This document shows positions 10,295-45,362 of a DNA stretch of 45,486 nucleotides, piece after piece. The notes under the pieces are model-generated. The model was not told where the DNA came from, ran no database searches, and was given only the letters and a program-made list of their open reading frames with translations. The translations under genes and the position numbers were made by a program. Source of the stretch: Clostridiaceae bacterium (GTDB lineage Bacteria > Bacillota > Clostridia > Saccharofermentanales > DTU023); contig JAAZKK010000061.1 of assembly GCA_012799825.1 (NCBI GenBank), forward strand, positions 1-45,486. Direction: 5' to 3'. The number at the start of each line of letters is the position of its first letter. Position 1 is the first letter of the stretch.

Positions 10295-12820
10295 CTATTC
10301 CTGTGTGTGTTCGCACGCGTTGTCTAATACGGTGTGATTTTGGCTTTCTGTGGCCGTCGAAGGTGCTGTGACCTGCGTAGTCGCATCGTGTGGATCAGAA
10401 AGCTCTTTACCATCTGTTGTCTGAGTAGCGTTCTCATGACTGTTTGACATGTCAATGTCAACCACTAAGTCGTCAAGCAGGGCGAGAAGCCATGTTCCGC
10501 GCGGATGTATTTGCTTATGATCCGGCTTGACACGTTCGCGAAGGCGTTGTTCAATGCTCTGCCTGATCATATCGTCCTGTTGATCGCGCATACGTTTCAG
10601 CAATGAATTTAAGCGCTGCTCGATTTGATCCAGATATTCATTTTGCGATTTTGGTGTCGACAAAACGGGCTGATCGGCTTGAGGAGCCTCGTTTGAATAC
10701 ACTGTCTTTAAATCGCTCGCATCCGTTGCGGATTTACTCCGGTTCCTGTGCTGTGAATTCGATTGTTGCTTGTTCATAAAACTCCTTGTTTTAAGCGTAT
10801 TCACGATGTAGGAGCCTCCGCCTTGTGCTCCATAGCCGACATCGAAGATGTTTTGCTGAACGACTTCCGCGATGTGTTCTCGATAGAAGTCTTTGCGTTC
10901 CAGTAGATCTGCGACGACAGCGGGCAGCAGAACGAGATGATCGGTGTCAAGCGAGATGCCGATCTCATCGCGAAGCGATATATCCAACGGAACGCAGGGG
11001 ATCTTTTGATAGTTCGGGTTCATGATTTTCATTGGCGTATTGATGAAAAGAGACGGTTTTTTTGTCGCGTAGGAGAATTCATTGGCGATCGTAGACCAGT
11101 CCGTTATGACCAGATCTGCGGTATAGACGGTCTCGCTTGACGCGAACGACGTCTGAAACTCGAATGCATCGCCGGAATCGCTGTATTGACGGATCAAGGC
11201 ATTGACTTTATCGGGAAAACGTTTCACGAACTCGGGATGTGGGCGCGCAATGACATGATAACCAGCATCAAGCAGCGGACGGATGACTTCATCCGGGCAA
11301 AGTTCAAGGATGTTGTATTTTTGCCACGAAGGGGCGATGAGGATTTTTTTCGGATCGTTTTCAATGTCGCCGAGCGCATCTGCCGCTTTCAGCATGGAGT
11401 CAAGCAGCGGATATCCCGTTTTGACTAATTTTTTTGGCGGAAGATTGTAGATGCGTTCTGTTTCGCGCACTTCCCGGATGTGGTTAGGTCCGTAGCAGAA
11501 AATCGTGTTAAAGTGGTCTAGCGCGCCTTCTCGCAGCATGAGGTGCAGGCTTGTCATCCCGTGGTCAAGGTAGATGTACTCGATGTCTTTCCGGACGAGC
11601 GAGCGTTTGATCTGATATTTTTCAAGATCGGGCATCGTCATCACGACCATATCGGCGTCCATCAGCATCATGAACTGAATAAGCGCGATCGGGCCGATAT
11701 AGTACGTTTGTATGCGCGGATTGTCTTTTTTGAAAATTCGGTCGTTGATGTCGCTTGTGACGTAATGGATGACAAGATCCGAGTGATTGAGCACGTAATC
11801 AATGAATCCCTCAAAATATTTGTAATAACCGCTGCTTTCAGCATAGAAGACAAGCCGCTTATCCTTTGTTTTCATAAAGCGTTTTTTGTCGGCGCGCTGA
11901 GCGCGGCGCTTCTTGGCATTGAGGGCGCGCTGTGCCCGCTTTTCTTCGCGTGTGAGGTGCGGTTTCTCAACGTGCTTGAGGTTGTCGGCGTAGGTTCCCG
12001 GATCGTAGATTATATTGCAGAGCGCCTGAACGGGGATTGACATCAAGTTGCCGCTAATCCAGTAAAGTCCTACACCGCACGGCAAAATAGCGGCGAAAAA
12101 GGCGGAGAACGCCACGAGGAAAATCGTCATGCCCCAGCGGCTCGCGGCGCTCTGTACACGCTGCAGTACATTGGCGCGGTTTTGATAGATGCCGAGGAGC
12201 AGCGCGCTTGCTCCGGAAAGGATAGGGTAAAGAACGGTGACGGACGCAAGGCGCGGGACTTCCGCCATATTTGTGCCGAGAAAATGAAGATCCATCTGAA
12301 GGATCTTGTCTAGTCCTGACAGCTCCGTAAACAGCGCCGGATTCGCTTGTGCCGTCTCAAGAACGGAAAGTTCCGCTCCGGTGCCCATCGCTTCGGGCGT
12401 CGTGCTGAGAAAACGCGCCGTTTTTTCTACAAAAAGGGCGATAGTTTCTGTGTCAAGATGCAGTAAATGCTGCATCGGATGGTAAATGACGTTGATCAGC
12501 CCGAGGATGATAGGGATTTGGATTAAGAGCGGCAGCATGCCCTTAAGCGGACTGTAACGCTCTTTTTTATAAAGCGCTTTTTGCATTTCAGCGATTTCAG
12601 CGCTGTTGCCGTCGTAACGCCGACGGACGTCCTCAAGAAGAGGGCGCAGTTTAATCATTGCGATCGAATTTTTCTGCGATATCAGCGACAGAGGAAACAT
12701 GATGATTTTTGTAAAGAGCGTGAAGAGAATAATGGAAACGCCGTAATTACCGACAAGCTGCCAGCAAAAACGCATCACATATCCCAGCGGTATTCCAAAT
12801 AGCGTGTTAATGATGTCCAT
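10295..12820 (-). CDS. YidC/Oxa1-family membrane insertase domain fused to a CDP-glycerol:glycerophosphotransferase (TagF/TagB-like) domain
   Basis: N-terminus MDIINTLFGIPLGYVMRFCWQLVGNYGVSIILFTLFTKIIMFPLSLISQKNSIAM (YidC2-like); after a basic linker, YIYLDHGMTSLHLMLREGALDHFNTIFCYGPNHIREVRE...APSWQKYNIL...VIARPHPEF...LVITDWSTIANEFSYATKKPSLFINTPMK. The ORF track extends to 13069 from a GTG; the natural start is probably the internal ATG at about 12820. Confidence 0.87.
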   Translation of the reverse strand: MDIINTLFGIPLGYVMRFCWQLVGNYGVSIILFTLFTKIIMFPLSLISQKNSIAMIKLRPLLEDVRRRYDGNSAEIAEMQKALYKKERYSPLKGMLPLLIQIPIILGLINVIYHPMQHLLHLDTETIALFVEKTARFLSTTPEAMGTGAELSVLETAQANPALFTELSGLDKILQMDLHFLGTNMAEVPRLASVTVLYPILSGASALLLGIYQNRANVLQRVQSAASRWGMTIFLVAFSAFFAAILPCGVGLYWISGNLMSIPVQALCNIIYDPGTYADNLKHVEKPHLTREEKRAQRALNAKKRRAQRADKKRFMKTKDKRLVFYAESSGYYKYFEGFIDYVLNHSDLVIHYVTSDINDRIFKKDNPRIQTYYIGPIALIQFMMLMDADMVVMTMPDLEKYQIKRSLVRKDIEYIYLDHGMTSLHLMLREGALDHFNTIFCYGPNHIREVRETERIYNLPPKKLVKTGYPLLDSMLKAADALGDIENDPKKILIAPSWQKYNILELCPDEVIRPLLDAGYHVIARPHPEFVKRFPDKVNALIRQYSDSGDAFEFQTSFASSETVYTADLVITDWSTIANEFSYATKKPSLFINTPMKIMNPNYQKIPCVPLDISLRDEIGISLDTDHLVLLPAVVADLLERKDFYREHIAEVVQQNIFDVGYGAQGGGSYIVNTLKTRSFMNKQQSNSQHRNRSKSATDASDLKTVYSNEAPQADQPVLSTPKSQNEYLDQIEQRLNSLLKRMRDQQDDMIRQSIEQRLRERVKPDHKQIHPRGTWLLALLDDLVVDIDMSNSHENATQTTDGKELSDPHDATTQVTAPSTATESQNHTVLDNACEHTQE

Positions 12821-20453: not shown

Positions 20454-20742
20454 CAAAACCCGGGAAACAGCAAAAAGGACAGATAAAAAACAGTTAAAAG
20501 GGACAGGGCTGCTTCGTTTCACTGGGCGGCCCTTACTTGTTCTCTGATATCTTATGCTGATATTCATCAAATAAACATAAACATAAGCTACAATATCTCG
20601 ACTCATCTCAATATCTTCAACAAATCGAATTATTGCGCGCGAAGATTTATGTCCATCGAGGCAGATGTTACGAACTGCAATCGATTTACCCATCATTATT
20701 AAACGACGATTCGTTTCAAGATTTCAAATACTCGAAAGGACG

Positions 20743-21525
20743 ATGAACAACGTGAAAAAAATACAGAATAGAAAAAAGCTAAAAAAGGCCGGGGTTTTGT
20801 TCCTTGCGCTTGTTTTAATATTTGTGGCGGCAGCCTGCGATCAAAAAAATGTGGAAAAACCTGTTCTTTCAGACACAAGGGAACCGGCAGGGACACTTGA
20901 TCAAACCGTTACGAGTGATCCGGTAGTTGAGACGGATCCGGTAGACGTGAGTGAACCGGCAGATGCAAGTGATCCGGTGGACGTGAGTGAGCCCGCAAAT
21001 GTGACGGATCCGGCGGACGCGAGCGAACCTACGGACACAGATGATCCACAAGTTAACAAACTGCCGCTATTCCCGTCGTTTACGACAAAAGATCTTGACG
21101 GGAATACGGTGTCGAGTGATCTTTTTTCTGAAAATGCCGTGACCGTCGTGAATTTGTGGTTTACGGGGTGCATCTATTGCGTAAACGAAATGCCGACCTT
21201 AGAGCAGGTTTATCAATCATATGGCGACGAACCGGTTCAATTCATCAGCATTTGTGTCGATCTTGGCTTCGCAGAAGGTGCTGATGTGCAAGCTCGAGAT
21301 ATCGTCGAGAGCACCGGTGTGACTTTTCCAACATTGTGGCCAGGAGATGTCGACACTGAATTCGGTCAATTTTTGTACTCCATTTTTGCTTTTCCGACGA
21401 CGGTTATCGTCAATCGTCGAGGAGAGCTCGTCGGGCAACCGATTGAAGGGGCAATTATGGGTGAATCCGCAGAGAACTATCTCAAAGGTCGTATTAACGA
21501 GGTTCTGGCGGCCGATATCCCTTGA
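20743..21525 (+). CDS. TlpA/redoxin-like thioredoxin-fold lipoprotein with a DP/EP-rich spacer
   Basis: Signal with FVAAACDQ lipobox; spacer DPVDVSEPADASDPVDVSEP; VTVVNLWFTGCIYCVNEMPTLEQVYQ...FPTTVIVNRRGELVG. Confidence 0.88.
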   Translation: MNNVKKIQNRKKLKKAGVLFLALVLIFVAAACDQKNVEKPVLSDTREPAGTLDQTVTSDPVVETDPVDVSEPADASDPVDVSEPANVTDPADASEPTDTDDPQVNKLPLFPSFTTKDLDGNTVSSDLFSENAVTVVNLWFTGCIYCVNEMPTLEQVYQSYGDEPVQFISICVDLGFAEGADVQARDIVESTGVTFPTLWPGDVDTEFGQFLYSIFAFPTTVIVNRRGELVGQPIEGAIMGESAENYLKGRINEVLAADIP

Positions 21526-21680
21526 CCTTAAGATCTCAAGGTCGCACTGACGAGACATTCCCGACCGATATCTCTTGACCTTAAGATCTCAAGGTCGCAC
21601 CGATGAGACATTCCCGACCGATATCTCTTGACCTTAAGATCTCAAGGTCGCACCGATGAGACCTTCCCGACCGATATCCC
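21512..21680. repeat. 53-bp tandem repeat, three units (starts 21512, 21565, 21618) plus a partial at 21671; each unit has an internal near-palindrome
   Basis: CCGATATC(C/T)CTTGACCTTAAGATCTCAAGGTCGCAC(T/C)GA(C/T)GAGAC(A/C)TTCCCGA repeated; GACCTTAAGATCTCAAGGTC is palindromic except for two positions. The first unit overlaps the TlpA-like stop codon. Confidence 0.93.
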
Positions 21681-24805: not shown

Positions 24806-24834
24806 TTGCATTGCGTTTACTTTAACGTTAAAAT
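24806..24834 (+). promoter_or_regulatory. Promoter of the lacI-family/alpha-glucoside operon with an overlapping LacI-type operator
   Basis: TTGCAT (24806-24811), 17-nt spacer, TAAAAT (24829-24834); perfect palindrome TTTAACGTTAAA (24821-24832) between and overlapping these elements. Confidence 0.72.
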
Positions 24835-25921: not shown

Positions 25922-28563
25922 AAATCGTGCACGTGCCGAGCGGACTGTTTCCTCACATAGAAAGCGGCTTTGAGAGAACGCCGTACCTTGTTACTGGCGG
26001 AGAGAGTGTCGTCATTGGTTGCCGATTGGAGGGTGATCAGGCGACATGTGTCCTGATGGAAGTCAGAGATTCCCGTGGGACGCATAAGATTACGGGTGAA
26101 TGTTCAAGGCCTGATGACGGCGATCGCCGGTACTATCGTTTCGTCTACAAAACGGATGCGAATGACAGCGCCTTTGCTTATCGCTTCCTTGTCGGCGATG
26201 AAGATGGCGGACGTTGGTATGAGTGTCCGCTTTTGAGTGAAGTCATACTTCAACCGGTTCAAGCGGATTTCTGCGATGGCGGCGCCGTTCTGACATACAT
26301 GTGGCAAAACCATACGTATCGTCTTGAATTTTTCGCGTCAGCATCGCTCAAACTCTCTTTTTATCGCTACTTTAACGTTAAAGTAGCGCCTGAGATTGAG
26401 GGCAGCACCTCTCTTTTCTCCATAGCGAATGATGGCGGTGTGCTCTCCATTCTTCACGATAAGAGAACAGTCATGCGCATGGATCCCGCTCCGACGCTGC
26501 TGGTCGACGCCGAGGGGCATGTTTGCCATTTCCGTTTCAGAGCAGATATAGCAGGCGAGGCTTTATACGGGCTCGGCGAGAAGTTCGATGCCGTCAACCA
26601 GCGCGGCAAACGGCCTATCAATTATGTGGTCGAGAAATTCACGCATCAGGAAGACAATGCGTATCTGCCGATTCCCTTTGTGTTCACTGATGCGGGCGTT
26701 AGTTTTTATTTGAAAAATACGTATCCGTCGAAGTTTGATTTCACGGGAAAGACCGAAGAAGGTTGGGCTCCGATGGAAGTATCCGGTATCTGTCTCGATG
26801 AGGAGCATTTCTTTGAAGCCATTATTGGCGCGGGCAACCCGGACTTTCTTTTGAAACAACACAGGATAGAGACGGGAGAAGCCGTTTTGCCTCCGCGGTG
26901 GGCATTCGGGCCATGGATGTCGTCGAATGGATGGAACACGCAACGCGAAGCATTAGAGCAGATAGCAGCGATGGATGCCGCCGGTATTCCGGCGACCGTC
27001 ATGGTTCTCGAAGCGTGGAGTGATGAGGAAACGTTCTACATCTGGAATGGAGCTGAATATACGCCGCGCAATGACGGAAGCGCCTTGCGTTATACCGATT
27101 ACACCTTCCTGCAGGACGGACCTTGGCCGAATCCGAAAGATTTTTGCAAACAGATAGCAGATAGAGGATTGAAGCTGATCCTCTGGCAGATTCCCGTGAT
27201 TAAATACGAGGCGAAGCCGCACGGAAAGCAGCTTGATCTCGATGAGCAGCATGCAATCAGGAATCGCCTTTGCCTGATGAATGACGATGGAAATGCTTAC
27301 CGCATCCCGGAGCTATGGTTTTCGAAATCGTTAGTTCCTGATTTTACTAATCCGGAAACGTGTCGCTGGTGGTTTGACAAACGCCGCTATCTCGTTGAAG
27401 AACTCGGCGTTTCCGGCTTTAAGACGGATGGCGGCGAGTTTCTGTTTGACCCTGAGAGCCGTTCCCATGACGGCAGAGGGATGATGGAACTCCACAACGC
27501 CTACCCGAATCTCGTGGCGAGTGCCTACCACACCTTTATCGATGAGACGGCAGGGAAAGGGCGCGGTGTCACTTTTAGTCGCGCCGGTTTTACAGGCGCG
27601 CAAAAGTTTCCGATTCACTGGGCAGGAGACCAGGCGTCCAATTTCTCCGAGCTGAAAGCCCAACTGACGGCAGGACTTTCTCTGGGGCTTTCCGGCGTGC
27701 CGTTCTACGGTTTTGATCTCGGCGGATTTGCCGGTGTTCCGCCATCGACGGAACTCTATCTTCGTTCTGCTGCATTTGCTGCCTTCGCTCCGATCATGCA
27801 GTTTCATTCCGAACCTCGTACCGGTCAATTCGGCATGGAGGAACGAGAGCACTGGAATAACGACAGAAGTCCTTGGAATATGGCGGAAATAAACAGAGAT
27901 GACAGAATTATTCCAATCTATCGGTTATTTGCGAATGTCCGCATGAATTTGCTGCCGTATATCTGGCAGGAAGCAAAGCATTGTGTGGAAACGGGACGGC
28001 CGCTCATGGCTCATCTGATTTACGACTTTTTTGAAGATGCTCGTGTCAGAGATGTTGAAGACGAATATCTCTTCGGACGTGATTTGCTCGTCGCTCCCAT
28101 CATTGAGGAAGGCGCTGCGGCGCGTGCGGTATATCTGCCTTCCGGCAGTTGGTATGACCTATGGGCAGGAGAAAAGTATCAAGGCGGAACGGAGATTGCC
28201 TGCACTTGCGATCTTGACCGGATTCCTGTTTATCTTCGTGACGGTGCCGCTGTCGCTTTAAATCTGAATGATCGTCTGGTGATGGGAAGCCTCGATAAAA
28301 CGGGCTGCATCGGTAACGCGATCGACCGATATGAGAATCTCGCTTTTCTCCTTGCGGGCGAACGTGGAGAGAGCGCGTACACAGACGATTTGGGAAACGA
28401 TTTTGTACTCGTCTGGGGCGACGGGCAAGTCTCCGTGAAGGGAAAACAGTCCGTGCCGGTGACCGTTTTCCATCCGGAATTGCGTCATGTCAATAGGCAA
28501 GGGTACTTTTTTGGTCGTGCAGTTCCGGGTCTTTCGGTGGAATTTAAGGGGGATAGAAAGTGA
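25918..28563 (+). CDS. Glycoside hydrolase family 31 (alpha-glucosidase/xylosidase type)
   Basis: ATG overlaps the lacI stop (ATGA). GLGEKFDAVNQRGKRPINYVVEKF, GFKTDGGEFLFDPESR, HWAGDQASNFSELKAQLTAGLSLGLSGVPFYGFDLGGF. Confidence 0.92.
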   Translation: MKIVHVPSGLFPHIESGFERTPYLVTGGESVVIGCRLEGDQATCVLMEVRDSRGTHKITGECSRPDDGDRRYYRFVYKTDANDSAFAYRFLVGDEDGGRWYECPLLSEVILQPVQADFCDGGAVLTYMWQNHTYRLEFFASASLKLSFYRYFNVKVAPEIEGSTSLFSIANDGGVLSILHDKRTVMRMDPAPTLLVDAEGHVCHFRFRADIAGEALYGLGEKFDAVNQRGKRPINYVVEKFTHQEDNAYLPIPFVFTDAGVSFYLKNTYPSKFDFTGKTEEGWAPMEVSGICLDEEHFFEAIIGAGNPDFLLKQHRIETGEAVLPPRWAFGPWMSSNGWNTQREALEQIAAMDAAGIPATVMVLEAWSDEETFYIWNGAEYTPRNDGSALRYTDYTFLQDGPWPNPKDFCKQIADRGLKLILWQIPVIKYEAKPHGKQLDLDEQHAIRNRLCLMNDDGNAYRIPELWFSKSLVPDFTNPETCRWWFDKRRYLVEELGVSGFKTDGGEFLFDPESRSHDGRGMMELHNAYPNLVASAYHTFIDETAGKGRGVTFSRAGFTGAQKFPIHWAGDQASNFSELKAQLTAGLSLGLSGVPFYGFDLGGFAGVPPSTELYLRSAAFAAFAPIMQFHSEPRTGQFGMEEREHWNNDRSPWNMAEINRDDRIIPIYRLFANVRMNLLPYIWQEAKHCVETGRPLMAHLIYDFFEDARVRDVEDEYLFGRDLLVAPIIEEGAAARAVYLPSGSWYDLWAGEKYQGGTEIACTCDLDRIPVYLRDGAAVALNLNDRLVMGSLDKTGCIGNAIDRYENLAFLLAGERGESAYTDDLGNDFVLVWGDGQVSVKGKQSVPVTVFHPELRHVNRQGYFFGRAVPGLSVEFKGDRK
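26365..26388. promoter_or_regulatory. Perfect 24-bp palindrome matching the promoter operator; candidate auxiliary intragenic LacI-type operator
   Basis: CGCTACTTTAACGTTAAAGTAGCG equals its own reverse complement and contains the ACTTTAACGTTAAA core found at 24819-24832. Confidence 0.75.
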
Positions 28564-30362
28564 ATTACTTTGTTACAGGCAATGAATATGTCAGTTTGCC
28601 TACGATTCGCGAGGATAACGCGGCGGTAGAATCCATCACCTTTCTTCATATGGGCGCGAAAGGAATGATAGAACTTGCCGGAACAAGCGATGTCCCGCTC
28701 CTGATTCCTGTCGTTTATTTCAACGGGAAGGAGATCCCGTTTGAAGATATTCGATGGGAGCGCCGTCACTACTGGATTCCGCAGTTTTCTGCACGCGCCG
28801 GACACCTCGTCATCGAAGGCGTTTATCTTGCTCCTATCGGTGAGCGCGGCTTTGGGATACGCCTCGCGGTGAGCGGGGACACCGAAGAAATCAACTTCGG
28901 CATTAAAGGCTGTTGGGGAAAGACTTTTCATTCTATAAACGAAAGCAAACTCATTGACACTCCGAAATATGCATACGAAAGCGGATGGAATCACGCCTTT
29001 GTCATGGATCAGCGCGCAGGGTTGCCGCTTTTAGCGTTTGCGCCTCTTTACACAGAACATCCGGAAAAATGCTCTGTTGAATGGTACTACGCGCAGTCGG
29101 GCGACGACATCACTTTTCAATTTACTGAGCATGCCGATAAAAATCGCGAATTTGTCCTTTGGTTTGGGCTCGGTTTTGAGGAAGTGGCTGCGGCCACGAG
29201 TGCTAAAGAAATGTTCCGCCATGGCTGGGATGTGAAGATAAAGGATACAGAAGACTGGCTGGCGACGCGCGAGCGTACGGTCGGTGATGCTGCTCTGGAC
29301 GATATCTTGAACCTCAATCTCTTTTTCAGTTATTTCTTTGGCGGCGGAGAGACTCTTGATACGGAGGAGTTTGTCCTAGTGACATCCAGAAGTCCGCGTT
29401 ATTACGTGAGCGCGGCTTACTGGGACCGCGACAGTCTATTGTGGAGTTTTCCCGCCATACTGCTTGCCGATCCTGAGACGGCGCGACAGATGTTGAATTA
29501 CGTATTTACACGGCAGATCCGCAATGTCGGCATCCATTCGCGTTACATCGACGGAACTGTGCTGGAGCCGGGGTTTGAACTTGATGAGCTGTGCGCTCCG
29601 GTCATCGCGCTTGCCCGCTACGTTGAGGAGACCGATGACCACTCGATATTAAAGAACGAGGCCGTTCGCGCAGGGATTGAAATTATCTTGAAAAAACTTG
29701 CCTCGAAGCGTCACCCTGAAATCGGTCTTTATGAAACATTTCTTCAGCCCACGGACGACATGCGGACATATCCTTACTTAACCTACAACAACGTGCTGGT
29801 GTGGTATATCCTGAAGAAATTGTCGACACTATATCCCGAATACGAACATCTTGAAATAATGGCAGAACAAGTTAAGTCAGCTATTTTACAGCATCTCATA
29901 CAAGAAAAAAACGGCAGGGCGATGTTTGTTTGGTCTTCCGATCTTGAAGGCGGCTGGGATATCTATGACGAACCTCCCGGCAGTTTACTGCTTCTCCCTT
30001 TCTACGGTTTCTCTGAATTGGAAGATCCCGTATGGAAAAACACAACGGAAGTCATTCGCCACAGGGATTACGAATTTTCATTTGCCGATTACCCGATCGC
30101 AGAAATCGGCTGTCGTCATGCGCCCTATCCTTGGGTTTTGAGCATTGCCAACAGTCTTCTTTCCGGCGAACGCGAGAAGGCAAAGCGTCACCTCATGCTC
30201 TGTCGTTTTGACAACGGCATTGCATGTGAAAGCGTGGATCCCGTTACAGGAGAGAGCCGGACAGGAAACGCGTTTGCCACGTGTGCCGGCTTTCTGGCTT
30301 TTGCCATTGACACTGCATTTGATGGCAAACGAGTAAATGAATCGGAGGAGGTATCGTCTTGA
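28560..30362 (+). CDS. Six-hairpin ((alpha/alpha)6) glycosidase-like protein
   Basis: PRYYVSAAYWDRDSLLWSFPAILLADPETARQMLNYVFTRQ...PGFELDELCAPVIALARYVEETDD...LYETFLQPTDDMRTYPYLTYNNVLVWYIL; sits between GH31 and GH65 genes with overlapping starts and stops. Confidence 0.7.
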   Translation: MNYFVTGNEYVSLPTIREDNAAVESITFLHMGAKGMIELAGTSDVPLLIPVVYFNGKEIPFEDIRWERRHYWIPQFSARAGHLVIEGVYLAPIGERGFGIRLAVSGDTEEINFGIKGCWGKTFHSINESKLIDTPKYAYESGWNHAFVMDQRAGLPLLAFAPLYTEHPEKCSVEWYYAQSGDDITFQFTEHADKNREFVLWFGLGFEEVAAATSAKEMFRHGWDVKIKDTEDWLATRERTVGDAALDDILNLNLFFSYFFGGGETLDTEEFVLVTSRSPRYYVSAAYWDRDSLLWSFPAILLADPETARQMLNYVFTRQIRNVGIHSRYIDGTVLEPGFELDELCAPVIALARYVEETDDHSILKNEAVRAGIEIILKKLASKRHPEIGLYETFLQPTDDMRTYPYLTYNNVLVWYILKKLSTLYPEYEHLEIMAEQVKSAILQHLIQEKNGRAMFVWSSDLEGGWDIYDEPPGSLLLLPFYGFSELEDPVWKNTTEVIRHRDYEFSFADYPIAEIGCRHAPYPWVLSIANSLLSGEREKAKRHLMLCRFDNGIACESVDPVTGESRTGNAFATCAGFLAFAIDTAFDGKRVNESEEVSS

Positions 30363-32539
30363 AGCCAACTCGCATCACATCTTGGCATATTTCCTGCGGA
30401 TCTGACACCGAGCGCAGTCTTCGTGAGAGCATTTTTTCAATCGCGAACGGATACATTGGGACGCGCGGCTTCCGACCGGATGAACGCGGAAAACACGCGG
30501 CATGGCGGTCGACCTTTATTTCCGGCTTTTATGAATACATCCGTCCGGGGATTACCGATTTAGTCAATCAGCCTGATTTTTCGGCGATGGCACTTCGCTT
30601 GAACGGAGAAGACACGGAAAGTATGCACGTCTTTGACTTCACACAGTCGCTTGATATGAGCTGTGGACTGCTTGAATGGAGCTTTTTTCTAGAATCTCGC
30701 GATGGTCTCAGGACAAAGATTAAGATGGAGAAATTCATCAGCATGGCCAATCGTCACATTGCGGCTTTACGTATCTCAGTCATGCCGGTGAATTGGAGCG
30801 GTTCTCTTTATCTGGAAACAGGGATCGATGCTTCCGTTCAAAATTTGCCGATCTCCGACAACCAGCTTCATAACAACATCGAGTTTGTTCAAATGTGGAA
30901 CATACCTGAGATAAAACCAATAGACGGCGGTGCGGTGCTGACGGCTAAGACGTTTCCGTCACATCGGCAAGTGACGATGGCCTATGTGCTCAATGCCGAT
31001 GAAAATGCGGCGCTGACAACTGATGACTACAGTGTGACGAGTGTGCTGGAGACAACGTTAAAGTGCGGAACATGCTGGCAGGCGGAGAAGCTCGTCGCCG
31101 TCGCATGCTTTCGGGACGGAGACAGTGAAAATATCGCTCGAAGCGAGCTTGAACTTATTCGCCATGAGAGCTTTGACGCACTTCTCGACCGGTCAAAAAA
31201 AGCATGGGGCAGGTTGTGGGAGACAAGCGATGTTGTCTTGGAAGGAGACGAAACTTGGCAGGGCGGCGTCCGCTACATCATTTTTCAGCTTCTTCAGGCA
31301 GCTCCTCGCCACGATCCGCATGCGAGCATCGGGGCTCGCGGGCTGACTCACGGACGATACAAGGGCTGTTATTTCTGGGACACGGAGATCTACATGCTCC
31401 CGATGTTCACGATGACACAGCCGGAAATCGCAAAGAATCTGCTTCTTTACCGCTACAACACTCTGCCCGACGCTGTGAAAAGCGCGAAAAACTTTTCCGC
31501 CAAGGGGGCGCGGTACTCTTGGATGGCGTCTGATACAGGATTTGAACAATGTGAGACGTGGGATACTGGATGCTGTGAGATACACGTCACGGCGGATATT
31601 GCGTTTGCTTTCGGAAAATACACGGCAAGTACCGGCGATGATCAATTCCTCTGTTGCTATGGTACAGAGCTCTACATACAGACGGCACGCTACTGGGTCG
31701 ATCGGTTCAACTACAGCGCGAAAGAGGATCGCTATCACCTTCTTTTTGTGAAAGGCCCCGACGAATACTGCGGCGTGACAAGCAACGATTTTTATACGGT
31801 GAGCATGGCAAGGCAAAATCTCCGTCTCGCAATCGACGCCGTATCCGAGATGAAGCAACGCTGGCCCGAGGAGTGGCAAGATCTCTCCTCACGTCTTTCG
31901 TTCAACGACAACGAGATTGCGGTGTGGCAGAACATCATTGATAAAAGTGTTCTTACTTTCGACGAAAAGCGCGGTCTTTGGTTGCAGGACGTGACTTTTG
32001 AGTATATGGAGCCTCTTGACATCAAGAAGGAAAAGGACGGCGACAAGCCCCTCTATCTTAGGATTGGCTACGACCGCCTTCAGAGGTACCAAGTGTTGAA
32101 GCAGCCGGCCGTGTTAATGTACATGGCTCTTTGCCCCGAAGATTTTTCCAAAGATGAGATTGAAACGGCGTGGAATTACTATGAGCCGAAAACGCTCCAC
32201 GATTCGACGCTCAGTTTCGGAATACACGCGCTTGTCGCATCAAGACTCGGGAAAACGCCTGAAGCCGTTCGGTATTTTGAAAAATCACTTTTTCTCGATC
32301 TTTTCGACTTAATGAATAATACGGGACACGAAGGCATCCACATGGCATCCCTTGGCGCGTCATGGCAGGCTCTGATTTTCGGCTTTGGCGGGTTATCGCA
32401 TGACGGAGAATACTTCAAAGTGGTGAGCAGATTGCCGGAACAGATACATGCCATGCGTTACCGATTCTTTTTTAAGGGACATCCATACGAGGCGGAAATA
32501 AAACAAGGTGATGATCCTATTATCAGGGAATTGACGTGA
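30359..32539 (+). CDS. Glycoside hydrolase family 65 (maltose/kojibiose/nigerose-type phosphorylase)
   Basis: ESIFSIANGYIGTRGFRPD, GARGLTHGRYKGCYFWDTEIYMLPMF, KGPDEYCGVTSNDFYT, LRIGYDRLQRYQVLKQPAVLMYM, HEGIHMASLGASWQALIFGFGGL. Confidence 0.93.
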   Translation: MKPTRITSWHISCGSDTERSLRESIFSIANGYIGTRGFRPDERGKHAAWRSTFISGFYEYIRPGITDLVNQPDFSAMALRLNGEDTESMHVFDFTQSLDMSCGLLEWSFFLESRDGLRTKIKMEKFISMANRHIAALRISVMPVNWSGSLYLETGIDASVQNLPISDNQLHNNIEFVQMWNIPEIKPIDGGAVLTAKTFPSHRQVTMAYVLNADENAALTTDDYSVTSVLETTLKCGTCWQAEKLVAVACFRDGDSENIARSELELIRHESFDALLDRSKKAWGRLWETSDVVLEGDETWQGGVRYIIFQLLQAAPRHDPHASIGARGLTHGRYKGCYFWDTEIYMLPMFTMTQPEIAKNLLLYRYNTLPDAVKSAKNFSAKGARYSWMASDTGFEQCETWDTGCCEIHVTADIAFAFGKYTASTGDDQFLCCYGTELYIQTARYWVDRFNYSAKEDRYHLLFVKGPDEYCGVTSNDFYTVSMARQNLRLAIDAVSEMKQRWPEEWQDLSSRLSFNDNEIAVWQNIIDKSVLTFDEKRGLWLQDVTFEYMEPLDIKKEKDGDKPLYLRIGYDRLQRYQVLKQPAVLMYMALCPEDFSKDEIETAWNYYEPKTLHDSTLSFGIHALVASRLGKTPEAVRYFEKSLFLDLFDLMNNTGHEGIHMASLGASWQALIFGFGGLSHDGEYFKVVSRLPEQIHAMRYRFFFKGHPYEAEIKQGDDPIIRELT

Positions 32540-32740: not shown

Positions 32741-32777
32741 AGATAAATCAATGAAACTGTTTAATGGAGGAAAACTA

Positions 32778-34082
32778 ATGAAAAAACTATTGTCACTGAT
32801 CGCATGTCTGCTCATGGTGGCGCTGTTATTAACAGCTTGTGCCACCGGGAATGGCAAATCAAGCGATACACAAGGAACGGACAAAATCAAAGAGCCGGAA
32901 CAATCTACACAGAAACAGGTCGAGGAACCAGTCACAATCAAGTATTGTAACTTCAACTCGTCAGGAGGCAATGAGGAAACGCTACAAAAAATGGTTGAAG
33001 CGTTTCAGAAAGATTATCCCAACATCAAGGTAGAAGTTGAGACCATAGGTTATAACGACTACTTTACGCAAATGCAAACACGCGTTGCCGGAGGCACGGC
33101 TCCAGATTGTTATGAGCTTAACATTGAAAACTTTGCAGCGTATGCTAATAAAGGGCTGCTTGCCGAAATCACTGACGCCGACGTGGATACGCTTAATGAA
33201 ACAGCGCTCAACGCGTTCAAAGTGAACGGCAAACAGTATGGATTGCCCGCAAGCTTTTCTAATGTCATTCTGATCTATAACAAAGATTTGTTTGATCGTG
33301 CTGAGATCGCCTATCCGACTGACGACTGGACGCAGGATGACGTTCAAGCTGCGGCCGCGGCGATCCGAGCACTCGGGGATGATATCTTCGGGATATGGCA
33401 GCCTATTACGTATAACGAGCTCTTCAAAGTCGTTGTGCAGTATGGCGGAAGTCTTCTAAATGAAGACAAAACAGCGTTTACCATTAATTCACCGGAGAAC
33501 ATTAAGGCAACAAAGGTACTTGTCGAACGTGTTCTTGTAAGCAACGTGCAGCCTACAGAAGTTCAAGCAGGGGGAATGGGCGACTGGGATATGTTTATGA
33601 GCGGCCGCCTCGGCATGATTCCTACAGGCATTTGGGCGTTCAACACGTTTACGGAAAACTGCGATTTCGAGTGGGATATTGTTGTTGAACCGGGAAGCAC
33701 ACAGAAGGCAACACACTTCTTTTCCAACTGTGTGGTCATGAATCCGAAGACAGAGCATCCTGATGCCGTCGTCGCTTGGCTTTCATGGCTGACTTCAAGT
33801 ACTGCATCCGCAGATATTCGTCTCGAAGCAGGCTGGGATCTGCCAGCACTAAAGAATATGGACGATTTGTCGGCCTATCTCGAAATCACACCTCCAGACA
33901 ATCGTGAAGCTGTGTTCAAGAGTCTTGATTATCTGGTAATGCCCCCGGTAATTGAGGATTATGCGATGATGAGCGATATCATCGGGCAAAAGCTTGCAGC
34001 AGCCGTCTCCGGAGACATAACGGTTGAGGAGGCACTCGATCAGGCACAGAATGAATGTGAAGCTAAGATTAAGCTGAATTAA
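32778..34082 (+). CDS. Sugar ABC transporter extracellular substrate-binding lipoprotein (CUT1)
   Basis: MKKLLSLIACLLMVALLLTACATGNGKSS; VEAFQKDYPNIKVEVETIGYNDYFTQMQTRVAGGTAPDCYEL. Confidence 0.93.
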   Translation: MKKLLSLIACLLMVALLLTACATGNGKSSDTQGTDKIKEPEQSTQKQVEEPVTIKYCNFNSSGGNEETLQKMVEAFQKDYPNIKVEVETIGYNDYFTQMQTRVAGGTAPDCYELNIENFAAYANKGLLAEITDADVDTLNETALNAFKVNGKQYGLPASFSNVILIYNKDLFDRAEIAYPTDDWTQDDVQAAAAAIRALGDDIFGIWQPITYNELFKVVVQYGGSLLNEDKTAFTINSPENIKATKVLVERVLVSNVQPTEVQAGGMGDWDMFMSGRLGMIPTGIWAFNTFTENCDFEWDIVVEPGSTQKATHFFSNCVVMNPKTEHPDAVVAWLSWLTSSTASADIRLEAGWDLPALKNMDDLSAYLEITPPDNREAVFKSLDYLVMPPVIEDYAMMSDIIGQKLAAAVSGDITVEEALDQAQNECEAKIKLN

Positions 34083-34137: not shown

Positions 34138-35082
34138 GTGAGCAGAGGAATGAAGTTTAGAAGCAGGAAACAGCGATCGCGGTCTTTGGGGCAGGATGGG
34201 CTCTTGGTAGCTTCTCCGTTTTTGTTACCGAGTCTGATTGGTTTCGCTGTATTTTCTTTTCTTCCTTTACTGATTTCGATTCTGATCAGTCTCACCGATT
34301 GGAACGGACTCGATGAACTGACGGCCAAAGGCTTTTTGCACGACCATTTCATCGGTCTTGATAATTACAAGAGTATTTTGCAAAGTGATGAATTTTGGAA
34401 GGTCCTGAAGAATACGGGACTCTACATTGTCTTGTATCTTCCGTTGATGCTTGCAGTCTCCATTGCGATCGCGCATCTCTTAAGCAGGCCGCGAAAGGGC
34501 GTCGGTGTGTTCCGCGTAATTTATTATATTCCGGTTCTGACGTCTTGGGTCGCGGCTTCCTTGATTTGGAAATCCGTTCTTTCACCAAAATATGGAGCAA
34601 TTAACAGTGTCCTCGAGATATTTGGGATACAGGGACCGGGGTGGCTCTTAGATGAGCGATGGGCGATGCCGGCTATCGTTCTTGTCTCTGTCTGGAAAGA
34701 CATGGGTTTTTTTGGTCTCATCTTACTTTCCGGGATGGTCGGAATTAATAAAAGCTACTACGAGGCCGCCGAGATTGATGGCGCGGGCGGTTGGACCAAA
34801 TTTTGGAGAATTACGCTTCCGCTGTTAACGCCGGCCATATTTTACGTTCTTATCGTTAGCCTCATCAATTCATTTCAGCTGTTCCCGCAGATCATGATTA
34901 TGACAGACGGCGGTCCGAACGGAGCAACACAAGTTATGGTCGAACGTATTTATAAATACGGGTTCCGTTACTACAAAATGGGTTACGCATCGGCGCTATC
35001 GTGGATACTCTTCTTTATCATTATGGTTTGCACGATGATTCAAATGCGTGGACAAAAGAAGTGGGTGAACTTTGACACATAA
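34138..35082 (+). CDS. Sugar ABC transporter permease (MalF/UgpA-like)
   Basis: GTG start; INKSYYEAAEIDGAGGWTKFWRITLPLLTPAIFYVLIVSLINSFQLF (EAA motif). Confidence 0.93.
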   Translation: MSRGMKFRSRKQRSRSLGQDGLLVASPFLLPSLIGFAVFSFLPLLISILISLTDWNGLDELTAKGFLHDHFIGLDNYKSILQSDEFWKVLKNTGLYIVLYLPLMLAVSIAIAHLLSRPRKGVGVFRVIYYIPVLTSWVAASLIWKSVLSPKYGAINSVLEIFGIQGPGWLLDERWAMPAIVLVSVWKDMGFFGLILLSGMVGINKSYYEAAEIDGAGGWTKFWRITLPLLTPAIFYVLIVSLINSFQLFPQIMIMTDGGPNGATQVMVERIYKYGFRYYKMGYASALSWILFFIIMVCTMIQMRGQKKWVNFDT

Positions 35083-35899
35083 GAGAAAGTACAATTCAAC
35101 GTTCTATTACATAATTGCTATTCTCATTGCAGTTATCTCCATGGTGCCTTTTTTCTGGATGATTGCTACATCTTTGAAGGCAAGAGGCGCGTTGATGGCT
35201 ATCCCAATAGAGTGGATACCGAAAGAGCCGACGTTTGCTGCCTACATCAAAGTTTTTTCACGTTTTCCTTTTTTAAAAACGATTGGCAACAGCCTTTATA
35301 TTTCTATTGCCTACACACTGATTACGCTGATTTCCGCATCGATGGCTGCCTTTGCTTTTGCAAAAATCAAGTTTCCGAAAGCTGAGTTGTTGCTGAAATG
35401 CTTTTTAGCGACGATGATGATTCCTACACAAGTGACGATGATTCCGCTTTTTGTGGTCATGAATCGACTCGGATGGATCAATTCATTCGGAAGTGTCATT
35501 TTGCCGTCTATTTTCCGTCCGTTTGCCATGTTCCTTTTGGTCCAGCAGATGCGGACAATACCGGATGATTTTTTGAATGCCGCACGCATTGACGGCGCGA
35601 ACACATTTCAGGTTTACCGCCACGTGGCGCTTCCTCTTTGCGTTCCAACACTTGCGACGCTGTCCATCACAACATTCATGGAATCGTGGAACGATTATCT
35701 CTGGCCGCTTCTGATGTTAACCGATAAAACAAAAATGACGCTTCCTATCGCTCTTTCGACGCTAAACGGACAATATGCGACAGAATACAATGTCCTCATG
35801 GCGGGAAGTTTAATTTCCATGATTCCAATTATTCTCGTTTATATTTTCGCTCAGCGCTCTTTCAAAAGCGGAATGATAGCAGGAGGAATTAAAGGTTAG
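35072..35899 (+). CDS. Sugar ABC transporter permease (MalG/UgpE-like)
   Basis: DDFLNAARIDGANTFQVYRHVALPLCVPTLATLSITTFMESWNDYLWPLLM. Confidence 0.94.
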   Translation: MTHKRKYNSTFYYIIAILIAVISMVPFFWMIATSLKARGALMAIPIEWIPKEPTFAAYIKVFSRFPFLKTIGNSLYISIAYTLITLISASMAAFAFAKIKFPKAELLLKCFLATMMIPTQVTMIPLFVVMNRLGWINSFGSVILPSIFRPFAMFLLVQQMRTIPDDFLNAARIDGANTFQVYRHVALPLCVPTLATLSITTFMESWNDYLWPLLMLTDKTKMTLPIALSTLNGQYATEYNVLMAGSLISMIPIILVYIFAQRSFKSGMIAGGIKG

Positions 35900-36057: not shown

Positions 36058-36690
36058 ATGACCATTCGTGCCGTCATTTTTGATCTTGATGGAGTTTTAA
36101 CATCAACAGACCGTTTTCATACGGAAGCTTGGCAGGCCACTTGTGAAAATTGGGGGATCCCCTTTAGCGTGTCTTCAAGTGATAAATTGCGCGGTGTCAG
36201 CCGCAAAGAAAGTGCGTTAATCATTCTTCGAGAAGCAGGACTTTCGCTATCAGAAGAGGAATTTGAACGCTTTTCCGACGAGAAGAACAGACTGTTTGTT
36301 ACTCTTCTTGATTCAATGGGAGAGGGTAATGTTTTACCCGGTGTTAAGGCGCTTTTGCGGGAGTTAAAACCGCGCTACCGTCTCGCCGTCGCATCGTCAA
36401 GCAGAAATGCAGTAAAAATACTGAAAAGAACGGGTCTTATGCCATTTTTCGAGGTAATTGTTGACGGCACGATGATCCGGTGTTCAAAACCAGATCCTGA
36501 AGTATTCCAAAAAGCTGCTGACGCACTCGGCATTCCATACGATGAATGCCTAGTTGTTGAAGATAGCATAGCGGGGGTTAGTGCCGCGTTCAAGCTGGGT
36601 TGCCCGGTAGCCGGTGTTGGTTCTGCAAGTGTAGCGAGCGGGGTAACTTATTCGCTGGCTGAAACTAAAGAACTTGGGGATATTCTTTGA
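36058..36690 (+). CDS. pgmB: Beta-phosphoglucomutase (HAD superfamily)
   Basis: AVIFDLDGVLTSTDRFHTEAWQATCENWGIPF, LRGVSRKESALIIL, LAVASSSRNA, CLVVEDSIAGVSAAFKLGC. Confidence 0.92.
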   Translation: MTIRAVIFDLDGVLTSTDRFHTEAWQATCENWGIPFSVSSSDKLRGVSRKESALIILREAGLSLSEEEFERFSDEKNRLFVTLLDSMGEGNVLPGVKALLRELKPRYRLAVASSSRNAVKILKRTGLMPFFEVIVDGTMIRCSKPDPEVFQKAADALGIPYDECLVVEDSIAGVSAAFKLGCPVAGVGSASVASGVTYSLAETKELGDIL

Positions 36691-41705: not shown

Positions 41706-44700
41706 ATGAGTGAGAAAAACATTCGGATCTATTTAGGATCGTCGTTGAATGAATTTGATGAAGAACGTGAAGAGATCGAACTCTTTATCCATCGAACCAG
41801 CGTATTATTTGAGGAGCGGTACAAGATAAAAATCGTTCCACTTTTATGTGAGACCTTTGAAGACGCGGTCTCTTTTTCCCGGGAGCAAGCCTATAACGAA
41901 AAACTTCTTGAGAGCGATTTGAGCTTTTTCATCTTTTTCACGCGTGCAAGCAGACACGCTGTTGAGGAATTCCAGAAAGCGTCGGAAGCCTTTAGATTGT
42001 CCGGCAAACCGAAGGTCTATGTCTACATCAAAGAGGTATCTGCTGATGAAACGGTAGAAAAGAGCATCTCAGATTTCCTATCGGAATTGGAAGATACGTA
42101 TCAGCACTACTATGGTCGCTTTAGTCATCTTGACACAATAAAATTACGTATCCTCTTGGCTCTCTATCACTCGAATGACAAGTTTTTCGAGCTCAAGGTA
42201 GAGTCGGGCAAGTGTTTGGTAGACGGAGCGGAGTACCTATCCCTTTCAGGCGTGACAGAATTTGCCAACAATGCGAACTTGCAGAAGATGAGGTCGGAGC
42301 TGGAACAGATCAACCTGAAGTACTATGCCTCAAAAGCTCAATATGCAACCGGAGCACTAGACGATCAGGGCATAAGGGACTACGCAGGTCTTGCCGCGAA
42401 GCGACAATCATTACTCGATGAGATCGAGGAGCTTGAAAAACAAATCTTCGAGATGACACTTGGTATGAGTCGTGATATGACAAGAGGTGAAGTGACGGCA
42501 CGTCAGCGAGCGGCCTATGAACTCTTTGAAAAGGGAGATTACGAGGGCTGCCTTCACATTCTTGATCCGGTAGAAATGGATGACGAATACGAGAGACAAA
42601 GACGCCGGAAGGAAGAAGAAATCAAGGCACTGTCGTCACGCTACATCCGCGAATACCGTACGAGGATAGAGATCTTAGAGGCGATGGTGGACTATGCCGG
42701 TCGATTTGAAGAGATAACTGCTTGCTACGAGAAGATCGTCAAGGTAGCTTTTACTGATAGGGTTGAGCTCGACGCTGTCTACGCATATGCATCTTTCCTA
42801 CATAACCAGAATAGAACACAACGAGCGATCGAAGTGGCGGAGAAACTTGAAAAGCTATACGCTGAAGAGGGATTTTCAGCGGAATACCGAGCTAGCTTAT
42901 ACATTCTTCTGGGAATTTTTCACCATAACCAAAATAGGCCTAAAGATGCAGAGCGATACTTTATTCTGTCGAAGGAAATCTATGACCGTTTATCGCAGAA
43001 AGATCCTGACCGCTATGAAGCGGCTTTTGCCGCTACTTGCCAAAACCTGGGGAAATTTTACAGTGATCGAGGCCAGCCTAAAGAAGCGGAACGGTACTAT
43101 TATCGGTCGAAGGAAATCAGGGAGCGTTTATCACAGAAGAATCCTGACCGCTATGAAGGGAATCTTGCCTGCATTTGCAACAGCCTAGGACTTTTCTGCA
43201 GTAACCGAGGCCAGCCTGATGAAGCGGAACGGTACTATCTTCGGTCGAAAGAAATCTTCGAGCGTTTATCGCGACAGGATCCTGACCGCTATGAAGCGGA
43301 TATTGCGATGACTTGCCACAACCTAGGCAATTTATATAGTAATCTAGGTCATCCTGATGAAGCGGAGAGGTGTTACCTTCAGTCGAAGGAGCTCTATGAG
43401 CGTTTATCGCAGAGGGATCCTGACCGCTATGAAGGTAATCTTGCTTTGACTTGCCACAATCTGGGGTTTTTATACTATAACCAAGGCAAGCCTGATGAAG
43501 CGGAGCGGTACTATCTTCGGTCGAAGGAGATCTTTGAGCGATTATCGCAGAAGGATCCTAGACGCTATGAAGGGGATCTTGCTTTGACTTGCAACAGCCT
43601 AGGATTTTTCTGCCGTAACCAAGGCAAGCCTGATGAAGCGGAGTGGTACTTTCTTCGGTCGAAGGACATCTATGAGCGTTTATCGCAGAGGGATCCTGAC
43701 CGCTATAATGCGGATCTTGCCAGAATTTATAACAATCTGGGCAATTTCTATAGTAACCGAGGTCAGCCTGATGAAGCTGAGCAATACTATCTTCAGTCGA
43801 AGGAAATCAGGGAGCGATTATCGCGGAGGGATCCTGACCGCCATGAAGCGGTTCTTGCCAGCATTTGCAACAATCTGGGAGAATTTTACTTTAACCAAGG
43901 TCGTCCTGATGAAGCGGAAAGGTGCTTAATTCAGTCGAAGGACATCTATGAGCGATTATCGCAGAGGGATCCTGACCGCTATGAAGCGGTTCTTGCCAGC
44001 ATTTGCAACAATCTGGGAATTTTATACGATAACCAAGGCTGTCCTGATGAAACGGAGAGGTGCCTAATTCAGTCGAAGGAAATCAGGGAGCGATTATCGC
44101 GGAGGGATCCTGACCGCTATGAAGCAGATCTTGCCTTGACTTATAACAATTTGGGGGCTTTATTCCAAAACCAAGGCCGTCCTAATGAAGCGGAGCGGTA
44201 CTATCTTCAATCGAAGGAAATCTTCGAACGTTTATCGCGGAGGGATCCAGACCGCTATGAAGCGGATCTTGCCAGTATTTGCAACAGCCTAGGCGTTTTT
44301 TATAGTGACCGAGATCAACCTGATGAAGCGGAGCAGTGCTATCTTCAGTCGAAGGAGATCAGGGAGCGATTATCTCGGAGGGATCCAGACTGCTATGAAG
44401 CGTCTCTTGCCGATATTTGCAACAATCTGGGAGATTTTTACTTTAACCGAGGCCGTCCTGATGAAGCGGAGCGGTCCTATCTTCAGTCGAAGGAAATCAG
44501 GGAGCGTTTATCGCGGAGGGATCCTGACCGCTATGAAGCGGATCTGGCTTTGATTTGCAACAATTTGGGCAATTTCTATAGTAACAGAGGCCGTTCTGAA
44601 GAAGCTGAGCGGTACTATCTTCAATCGAAGGAAATCAGGGAGCGTTTATCGCGGAGGGATCCTGACCGCTATGAAGCGGATCTTGCTTCGACTTGCTTCA

Positions 44701-45362
44701 ATCTGGGGGTTTTATATCATGAGTATGGCCGTTCTGAAGAAGCTGAGCGGTACTATCTTCAATCGAAGGAAATCAGGGAGCGTTTATTGCAGAGGGATCC
44801 TGAACGCTATGAAGCGGATCTTGCGGCAATTTGCTACAATCTAGGCAATTTCTATAGTGGCCGAGGCCGTCCTGATGAAGCGGAGCGATACTATCTTCAG
44901 TCGAAGGAGCTCTATGAGCGTTTATCGCAGAGGGATCCTGAACAGTATAAAGCGAATCTTGCGATGACTTGCAATAATCTGGGGGTTTTATACTATAACC
45001 TAGGCCGTCCTGATGAAGCGGAGCGGTGTTATCTTCAGTCGAAGGAAATCAGGGAGCGTTTCTCGGAGAGTGATCCTGAACAGTATGAAGCGGATCTTGC
45101 TTCAACGTGCAACAATCTGGGGGTTTTATACGATAGGCTAGGTCGTTCTGAAGAAGCGGAGCGCTCCTATCTTCAATCGAAGGAAATCAGGGAGCGTTTA
45201 TCGCGGAGGGATCCTGACCGCTATGAAGCGGATCTTGCGGAGATTTGCAACAAACTGGGAGATTTTTACTTTAAACAACGCCGACTTGCGGAAGCAGCAT
45301 GGCTTTTCATTCAGTCGAAGGAGCTCTATGAGCGTTTATCGCAGAGGAAACCCGGTTCGTAA
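41706..45362 (+). CDS. TIR-like/DUF4062-like domain followed by coiled-coil region and about 18 kinesin-light-chain-like TPR repeats (1218 aa)
   Basis: Open frame throughout; repeat consensus NLGxFYxNxGRPDEAERYYLQSKEIRERLSRRDPDRYEADLAxICN, 46 aa. Confidence 0.85.
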   Translation: MSEKNIRIYLGSSLNEFDEEREEIELFIHRTSVLFEERYKIKIVPLLCETFEDAVSFSREQAYNEKLLESDLSFFIFFTRASRHAVEEFQKASEAFRLSGKPKVYVYIKEVSADETVEKSISDFLSELEDTYQHYYGRFSHLDTIKLRILLALYHSNDKFFELKVESGKCLVDGAEYLSLSGVTEFANNANLQKMRSELEQINLKYYASKAQYATGALDDQGIRDYAGLAAKRQSLLDEIEELEKQIFEMTLGMSRDMTRGEVTARQRAAYELFEKGDYEGCLHILDPVEMDDEYERQRRRKEEEIKALSSRYIREYRTRIEILEAMVDYAGRFEEITACYEKIVKVAFTDRVELDAVYAYASFLHNQNRTQRAIEVAEKLEKLYAEEGFSAEYRASLYILLGIFHHNQNRPKDAERYFILSKEIYDRLSQKDPDRYEAAFAATCQNLGKFYSDRGQPKEAERYYYRSKEIRERLSQKNPDRYEGNLACICNSLGLFCSNRGQPDEAERYYLRSKEIFERLSRQDPDRYEADIAMTCHNLGNLYSNLGHPDEAERCYLQSKELYERLSQRDPDRYEGNLALTCHNLGFLYYNQGKPDEAERYYLRSKEIFERLSQKDPRRYEGDLALTCNSLGFFCRNQGKPDEAEWYFLRSKDIYERLSQRDPDRYNADLARIYNNLGNFYSNRGQPDEAEQYYLQSKEIRERLSRRDPDRHEAVLASICNNLGEFYFNQGRPDEAERCLIQSKDIYERLSQRDPDRYEAVLASICNNLGILYDNQGCPDETERCLIQSKEIRERLSRRDPDRYEADLALTYNNLGALFQNQGRPNEAERYYLQSKEIFERLSRRDPDRYEADLASICNSLGVFYSDRDQPDEAEQCYLQSKEIRERLSRRDPDCYEASLADICNNLGDFYFNRGRPDEAERSYLQSKEIRERLSRRDPDRYEADLALICNNLGNFYSNRGRSEEAERYYLQSKEIRERLSRRDPDRYEADLASTCFNLGVLYHEYGRSEEAERYYLQSKEIRERLLQRDPERYEADLAAICYNLGNFYSGRGRPDEAERYYLQSKELYERLSQRDPEQYKANLAMTCNNLGVLYYNLGRPDEAERCYLQSKEIRERFSESDPEQYEADLASTCNNLGVLYDRLGRSEEAERSYLQSKEIRERLSRRDPDRYEADLAEICNKLGDFYFKQRRLAEAAWLFIQSKELYERLSQRKPGS
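42895..45362 (+). repeat. 138-bp coding tandem repeat array, about 18 units
   Basis: The phrase GGATCCTGACCGCTATGAAGCG recurs every 138 bp (for example about 43002 and 43140); 17 full units and one partial counted in the translation. Confidence 0.93.

Follow-up and report, generated by a model that had tools for sequence, protein, structure and literature searches.

A predicted operator within the GH31 gene of a lacI-headed sugar operon is kept in 16 operons while the encoded amino acids change

In the Clostridiaceae bacterium GCA_012799825.1, a perfect 24-bp palindrome of the LacI operator type lies within the coding sequence of a glycoside hydrolase of family 31 (GH31), the second gene of an operon that begins with lacI. 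This location raises the question of what an operator-like sequence does inside a gene. The stretch of DNA analysed here (contig JAAZKK010000061.1, 45,486 nucleotides, hereafter the window) had been read from its letters as probably holding an auxiliary operator, used either for DNA looping or for roadblock repression.

The operon is encoded on one strand in the order lacI, GH31, GH125-like, GH65, ABC binding protein, two permeases, and β-phosphoglucomutase-like protein (Table 1). Several of these genes have overlapping start and stop codons, and the ATG of the GH31 gene overlaps the stop codon of lacI on the same strand. The HAD protein at the end of the operon scores slightly below the cut-off of TIGR01990 (188.9 versus 189.4 bits) and above that of TIGR02009. 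From what is known of these families, the operon looks like a system for the uptake and hydrolysis or phosphorolysis of an alpha-glucoside. Searches across the order, the class, and relatives have revealed that the lacI-GH31 operon is rare, and no description of it was found in the open-access literature. Elsewhere in the window, positions 21512-21680, directly behind the ORF 20665-21525, hold a tandem repeat (3.2 copies, unit length 53 bp) with the inverted repeat GACCTTAAGATCTCAAGGTC in each unit, and a 1218-aa ORF (41706-45362) contains 16.8 copies of a 138-bp (46-aa) repeat at 42951-45269.

Table 1. Predicted genes and regulatory sites of the lacI-GH31 operon in the window.
Feature	Position	Strand	Basis or remark
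Putative sigma-70-type operon promoter	24806..24834	+	TTGCAT, 17-bp spacer, TAAAAT; consensus reading only
Promoter operator (predicted)	24819..24834	.	ACTTTAACGTTAAAAT; overlaps -10 box; identical in sister species L011
LacI-family repressor, 352 aa	24863..25921	+	Pfam PF00356, PF13377; PDB alignment to LacI 3-328; ortholog alignment
GH31 glycoside hydrolase, 881 aa	25918..28563	+	PF01055, 216.6 bits
Intragenic operator (predicted), perfect 24-bp palindrome in GH31	26365..26388	.	conserved 16-bp core 26369-26384 (ACTTTAACGTTAAAGT)
GH125-like glycosidase	28560..30362	+	PF06824
GH65 family phosphorylase/hydrolase	30359..32539	+	PF03632, PF03636; NF010380 domain
ABC sugar-binding protein	32751..34082	+	PF13416
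Two ABC sugar permeases	34138..35899 (34138-35082, 35072-35899)	+	PF00528
Beta-phosphoglucomutase-like HAD protein	36058..36690	+	TIGR01990, TIGR02009

The sequence CGCTACTTTAACGTTAAAGTAGCG is identical to its own reverse complement at exactly the position given in the original prediction, and no other perfect palindrome in the window is as long (the next longest have 18 and 16 bp). It encodes GH31 residues 150-157 (codons CGC TAC TTT AAC GTT AAA GTA GCG) and lies 452 nt into the gene, in the transcribed region downstream of the promoter, where a roadblock operator has to be. Its core shares 15 of 16 bases with the promoter site; the core of the promoter site at 24821-24832 and the distance of exactly 1550 bp between the two centres have both been confirmed. 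The promoter site had been placed between the hexamers TTGCAT (24806-24811) and TAAAAT (24829-24834), and this position holds except that the site does not merely lie between them, since it covers the -10 box. This promoter is absent from the list produced by an automatic promoter scan of the window. The outer CGC/GCG of the palindrome is not conserved, as the sister species shows CAC...GGG, which indicates that the predicted functional core is of 16-20 bp and not of 24.

Operators of the LacI family are palindromes of 16-22 nt with a central CG (PMC4052901). The internal site has this form, being an even palindrome of 16-20 bp with a CG centre that is found in all 16 internal sites compared below, and it is accompanied by a LacI-family gene in the operon and by a matching promoter site. 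A terminator-like stem with a T-rich tail is also found 10 bp behind it (26398-26413).

When up to three mismatches are allowed, ACTTTAACGTTAAAGT has two matches in the window; the expectation from shuffled sequence is 0.16, and a count of two was reached in 0 of 100 shuffles. Given the protein and the codon usage of the gene, the probability of a perfect 24-bp palindrome at these codons is 8e-5, and palindromes of at least 24 bp appeared in 0 of 1000 codon-shuffled genes. In the whole genome (2.31 Mb), the internal and promoter sites are the only matches with zero or one mismatch. The further near matches that were examined fall within a MazG/NUDIX-like ORF, behind a gyrB/parE-like ORF, or within a citF-like ORF (names read by eye from the translations). 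A wider regulon was considered, and no further target is evident among these matches; because they lie in or beside unrelated genes, the regulator looks local.

The comparison of orthologs comprises 16 operons: 11 close ones from six clades (the window and L011-L020) and five from a seventh clade (L048-L052). The sequences are mostly metagenome-assembled genomes, and those within a clade are related and not independent. All 11 close lacI-GH31 orthologs hold an operator-like 16-mer at the same GH31 codons: ACTTTAACGTTAAAGT (window, L011), ATTTAACCGATAAAAT (L012), ACTTAAACGTTAAAGT (L013), ATTTAAACGTTAAAAT (L014, L016), ATTTAACCGATAAAGT (L017), ATTTAACCGTTAAAAC (L020), ACTTAAACGTTTATTT (L015, L018), and ACTTATCCGATAAAGT (L019). 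Since the proteins are only 48-58% identical between the six clades, silent sites should be close to saturated between them. The peptides encoded at the aligned site vary (YFNVKV, NLTDKI, DLNVKV, NLNVKI, HLTDKV, NLTVKT, YLNVYL/NLNVYL, and NLSDKV).

These orthologs have been scored with a motif built only from non-coding sites of the other clades, the promoter sites being chosen automatically. Under this motif, the internal site ranks first in all 11 GH31 genes, and synonymous codon shuffles reach the observed score in 0 to 126 of 3000 cases per gene (79 of 3000 for the window gene taken alone). Third-position identity at the site is 0.74, versus a mean of 0.39 (SD 0.10), and both this value and the conservation of nucleotides over amino acids (z 4.6) are the first of 707 five-codon windows. 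In two GH31 genes with high third-position GC, the sole TTA among all leucine codons falls in the site (83 codons and GC3 0.89 in L016; 71 codons and GC3 0.78 in L018). The internal sites of L015 and L018 are weaker and less symmetric matches, with scores of about 14, and the promoter sites of L015, L017, and L018 are less clear than the others.

In the seventh clade, at 38-46% identity (39-46% for GH31 compared with the others), the internal sites ACTTAAACGTTCAAGT, ACTTAAACGGTTAAGT, ACTTAGACGTTTCAGT, ACTTAAGCGCTTAAGC, and ACTTAAACGTTTAAGT appear at nt 507-531 of the gene. In the alignment this is some 26 residues downstream of the position used by the close orthologs, and the reading frame differs as well (L-K/R-R-x-S). 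Promoter partners are present too, for example ACTGAAACGTTTAAGT. Codon shuffles reach the observed score in 0 of 3000 cases in four of the five genomes; in L051 they do so in 401 of 3000, which is not significant alone. The gene content behind GH31 differs in this clade, and the promoter and GH31 sites are still the main motif matches of each locus. The curated motif used for these and the locus-wide scans includes choices made by eye.

Across all 16 operons, the promoter copy of the motif overlaps or closely follows the lacI promoter, the internal site lies about 410-530 nt into the gene behind lacI, and the spacing between both sites is 1499-1675 bp. The internal site shows no variation at positions A1, T3, T4, C8, G9, and T11. 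Promoter and internal sites are alike within clades (permutation P 0.012), with a modest co-variation. Motif scores of at least 13 are few elsewhere in the loci (one each in lacI of L017, GH65 of L011, and the binding-protein gene of L057). GH31 relatives outside the lacI-GH31 operon (L021-L026) hold no such site in GH31. A third operator-like site is found just behind GH65, before the binding-protein gene, in L013 (11581), L014 (11663), L016 (8515), L017 (11797), and L020 (11788), and is absent from the window. The same interval of L011 contains a 75-aa lacI-like C-terminal fragment (11757-11981), perhaps a decayed second repressor, while L021 shows a near operator match, ACTTTAAGGTTAAAGT, at 9017, away from its GH31 genes and on a genome piece without a lacI homolog.

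The pattern named in the original prediction as speaking against it was that of orthologs which drop the site and keep the amino acids. The opposite has been found, as an internal site is present in all 16 operons despite changes in the amino acids and, in one clade, in position and reading frame. The 16-bp motif is held at the DNA level, and the internal site very probably serves as a genuine auxiliary operator at which transcription of the enzyme genes is stopped. That it is a real operator of the operon's own LacI-type repressor is predicted with high confidence.

A palindrome arising from protein constraint or codon chance (Y/L-F/N-V-K), with no function in the DNA, is highly improbable. 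The peptide is permissive, and the shuffles of the window gene alone do reach the score at times; however, the motif stays while the amino acids change, third-position identity peaks at the site, rare TTA codons are used there in GC-rich genomes, and the seventh clade (clade G) carries it in another column and frame. An AlphaFold model of GH31, mediocre overall (mean pLDDT 69) and of low confidence in this segment, shows only that residues 152-163 probably form a loop. This explanation has been rejected by the ortholog, shuffle, and third-position tests. Even more improbable is an RNA hairpin in the GH31 mRNA, serving as a processing or attenuation element: the window transcript gives a stem of 10 perfect base pairs and a 4-nt loop, but outside the window and the sister species no perfect stem is seen, other sites such as ATTTAACCGATAAAAT being asymmetric, and the motif also covers the -10 box, where it would be mostly untranscribed. 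The hairpin has been rejected for its lack of conservation among orthologs. It is very unlikely that the site serves another DNA-binding protein or that it controls a promoter lying within lacI/GH31. The local repressor is the predicted binder: each operon shows the motif together with a lacI promoter site, and GH31 relatives outside the operon lack it. The internal promoter has been discarded because the window shows no promoter-like excess, its scan giving fewer promoter-like sites than shuffles.

The remaining question is how an operator at this place would act. Looping, in which repressors bound to the promoter and internal sites touch each other as in lac O1-O2 or GalR OE-OI and thereby repress initiation more strongly, is rather doubtful as the main mode of action. 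Two matched sites lie on one DNA, and their spacing stays within 1499-1675 bp although the internal site moved in one clade. Against it stands the structure of the repressor, whose residues 4-347 align to residues 3-328 of E. coli LacI and which ends at residue 352: the LacI-style tetramerisation segment, required by a looping operator of the lac O2 type, is missing, and none of the 16 ortholog repressors has a C-terminal tail of LacI length. This rules out LacI-style tetramers, not every kind of looping; GalR is an example of the dimeric LacI-family repressors that are able to loop. For a loop to form here, dimers would have to contact each other, or a helper such as HU would be required. A nearer partner within lacI would be possible and is never seen, and a looping partner would have no reason to avoid lacI, whereas the internal site always follows the lacI stop codon (16 of 16 operons).

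The absence of the tetramerisation segment and the position of the site beyond lacI in every operon favour a roadblock over lac-type looping. Of the original prediction, the auxiliary reading thus stands, and of its two modes the roadblock fits better. Taken as a whole, the explanation that we consider fairly likely is a cognate operator combined with an elongation roadblock that spares lacI; if the operator is real, the roadblock is probably its main mode, while looping between the two sites would be a possible but unlikely one. As long as the inducing sugar is absent, dimers of the repressor at the promoter site would block initiation and also set the level of lacI, while a second dimer on the intragenic site would stop the polymerases that escape the promoter. 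Leak transcription would then still yield repressor, but not full-length GH31 or the products of the genes behind it, and the sugar would release both sites. Roadblocking has been documented for PurR, GalR, CcpA, and LacI (PMC10310618, PMC4132739), and LacI can cut downstream transcription by >80% (PMC4132739). In lacking a tetramerisation segment, the repressor resembles PurR and CcpA.

Among known systems, E. coli lac O2, located about 400 nt into lacZ, is likewise a LacI-family operator inside a glycosidase gene and auxiliary to a promoter operator. Unlike in lac, the repressor gene here heads its own operon and is flanked by the two sites, the spacing is about 1.55 kb instead of about 0.4 kb, the repressor has no tetramerisation segment, and the site is kept down to about 50% protein identity, with another position in one clade. 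The gal operon of E. coli also has two operators, OE and OI, with the internal one in the first structural gene; they are separated by about 114 bp and form a loop with HU, and galR is encoded outside the operon, whereas here the repressor gene is within it. The PurR site in E. coli purB, where another LacI-family repressor acts by roadblock, resembles the predicted system in combining a repressor without tetramerisation segment with a site in coding sequence (PMC4052901, PMC10310618), but PurR is a global regulator and purB is not linked to it, while the site described here belongs to the repressor's own operon and has a matched promoter operator. CcpA of B. subtilis, another LacI-family protein from a Firmicute, has roadblock sites downstream of the transcription start, e.g., in sigL (PMC10310618); in contrast to this global protein, the repressor studied here would be a local sugar regulator without a clear further site in its genome.

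Coding regions hold less than 1% of the LacI-family sites that have been catalogued, and the proven cases named are lacZ and purB (PMC4052901). The internal site would join this rare kind as a new and deeply conserved case, in an unusually well conserved setting. Its presence in 16 operons, at about 410-530 nt of the second gene, points to an undercount of such sites, as the survey of LacI-family sites restricted its motif search to the range from -400 to +100 relative to gene starts (PMC4052901). The operons also provide a comparative set for asking when selection favours a roadblock over looping, and a clear case of a regulatory site that constrains, or re-enters, protein-coding sequence. 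A dimeric LacI-type repressor encoded first, with an operator kept just behind it in coding sequence, may tentatively be regarded as a standing architecture of autoregulated sugar operons. If this is true, motif searches limited to -400 to +100 miss such operators, leak transcription can renew the repressor while the roadblock keeps the enzymes from being made, and selection for the site would be strong enough to alter the host protein or to bring the site back elsewhere.
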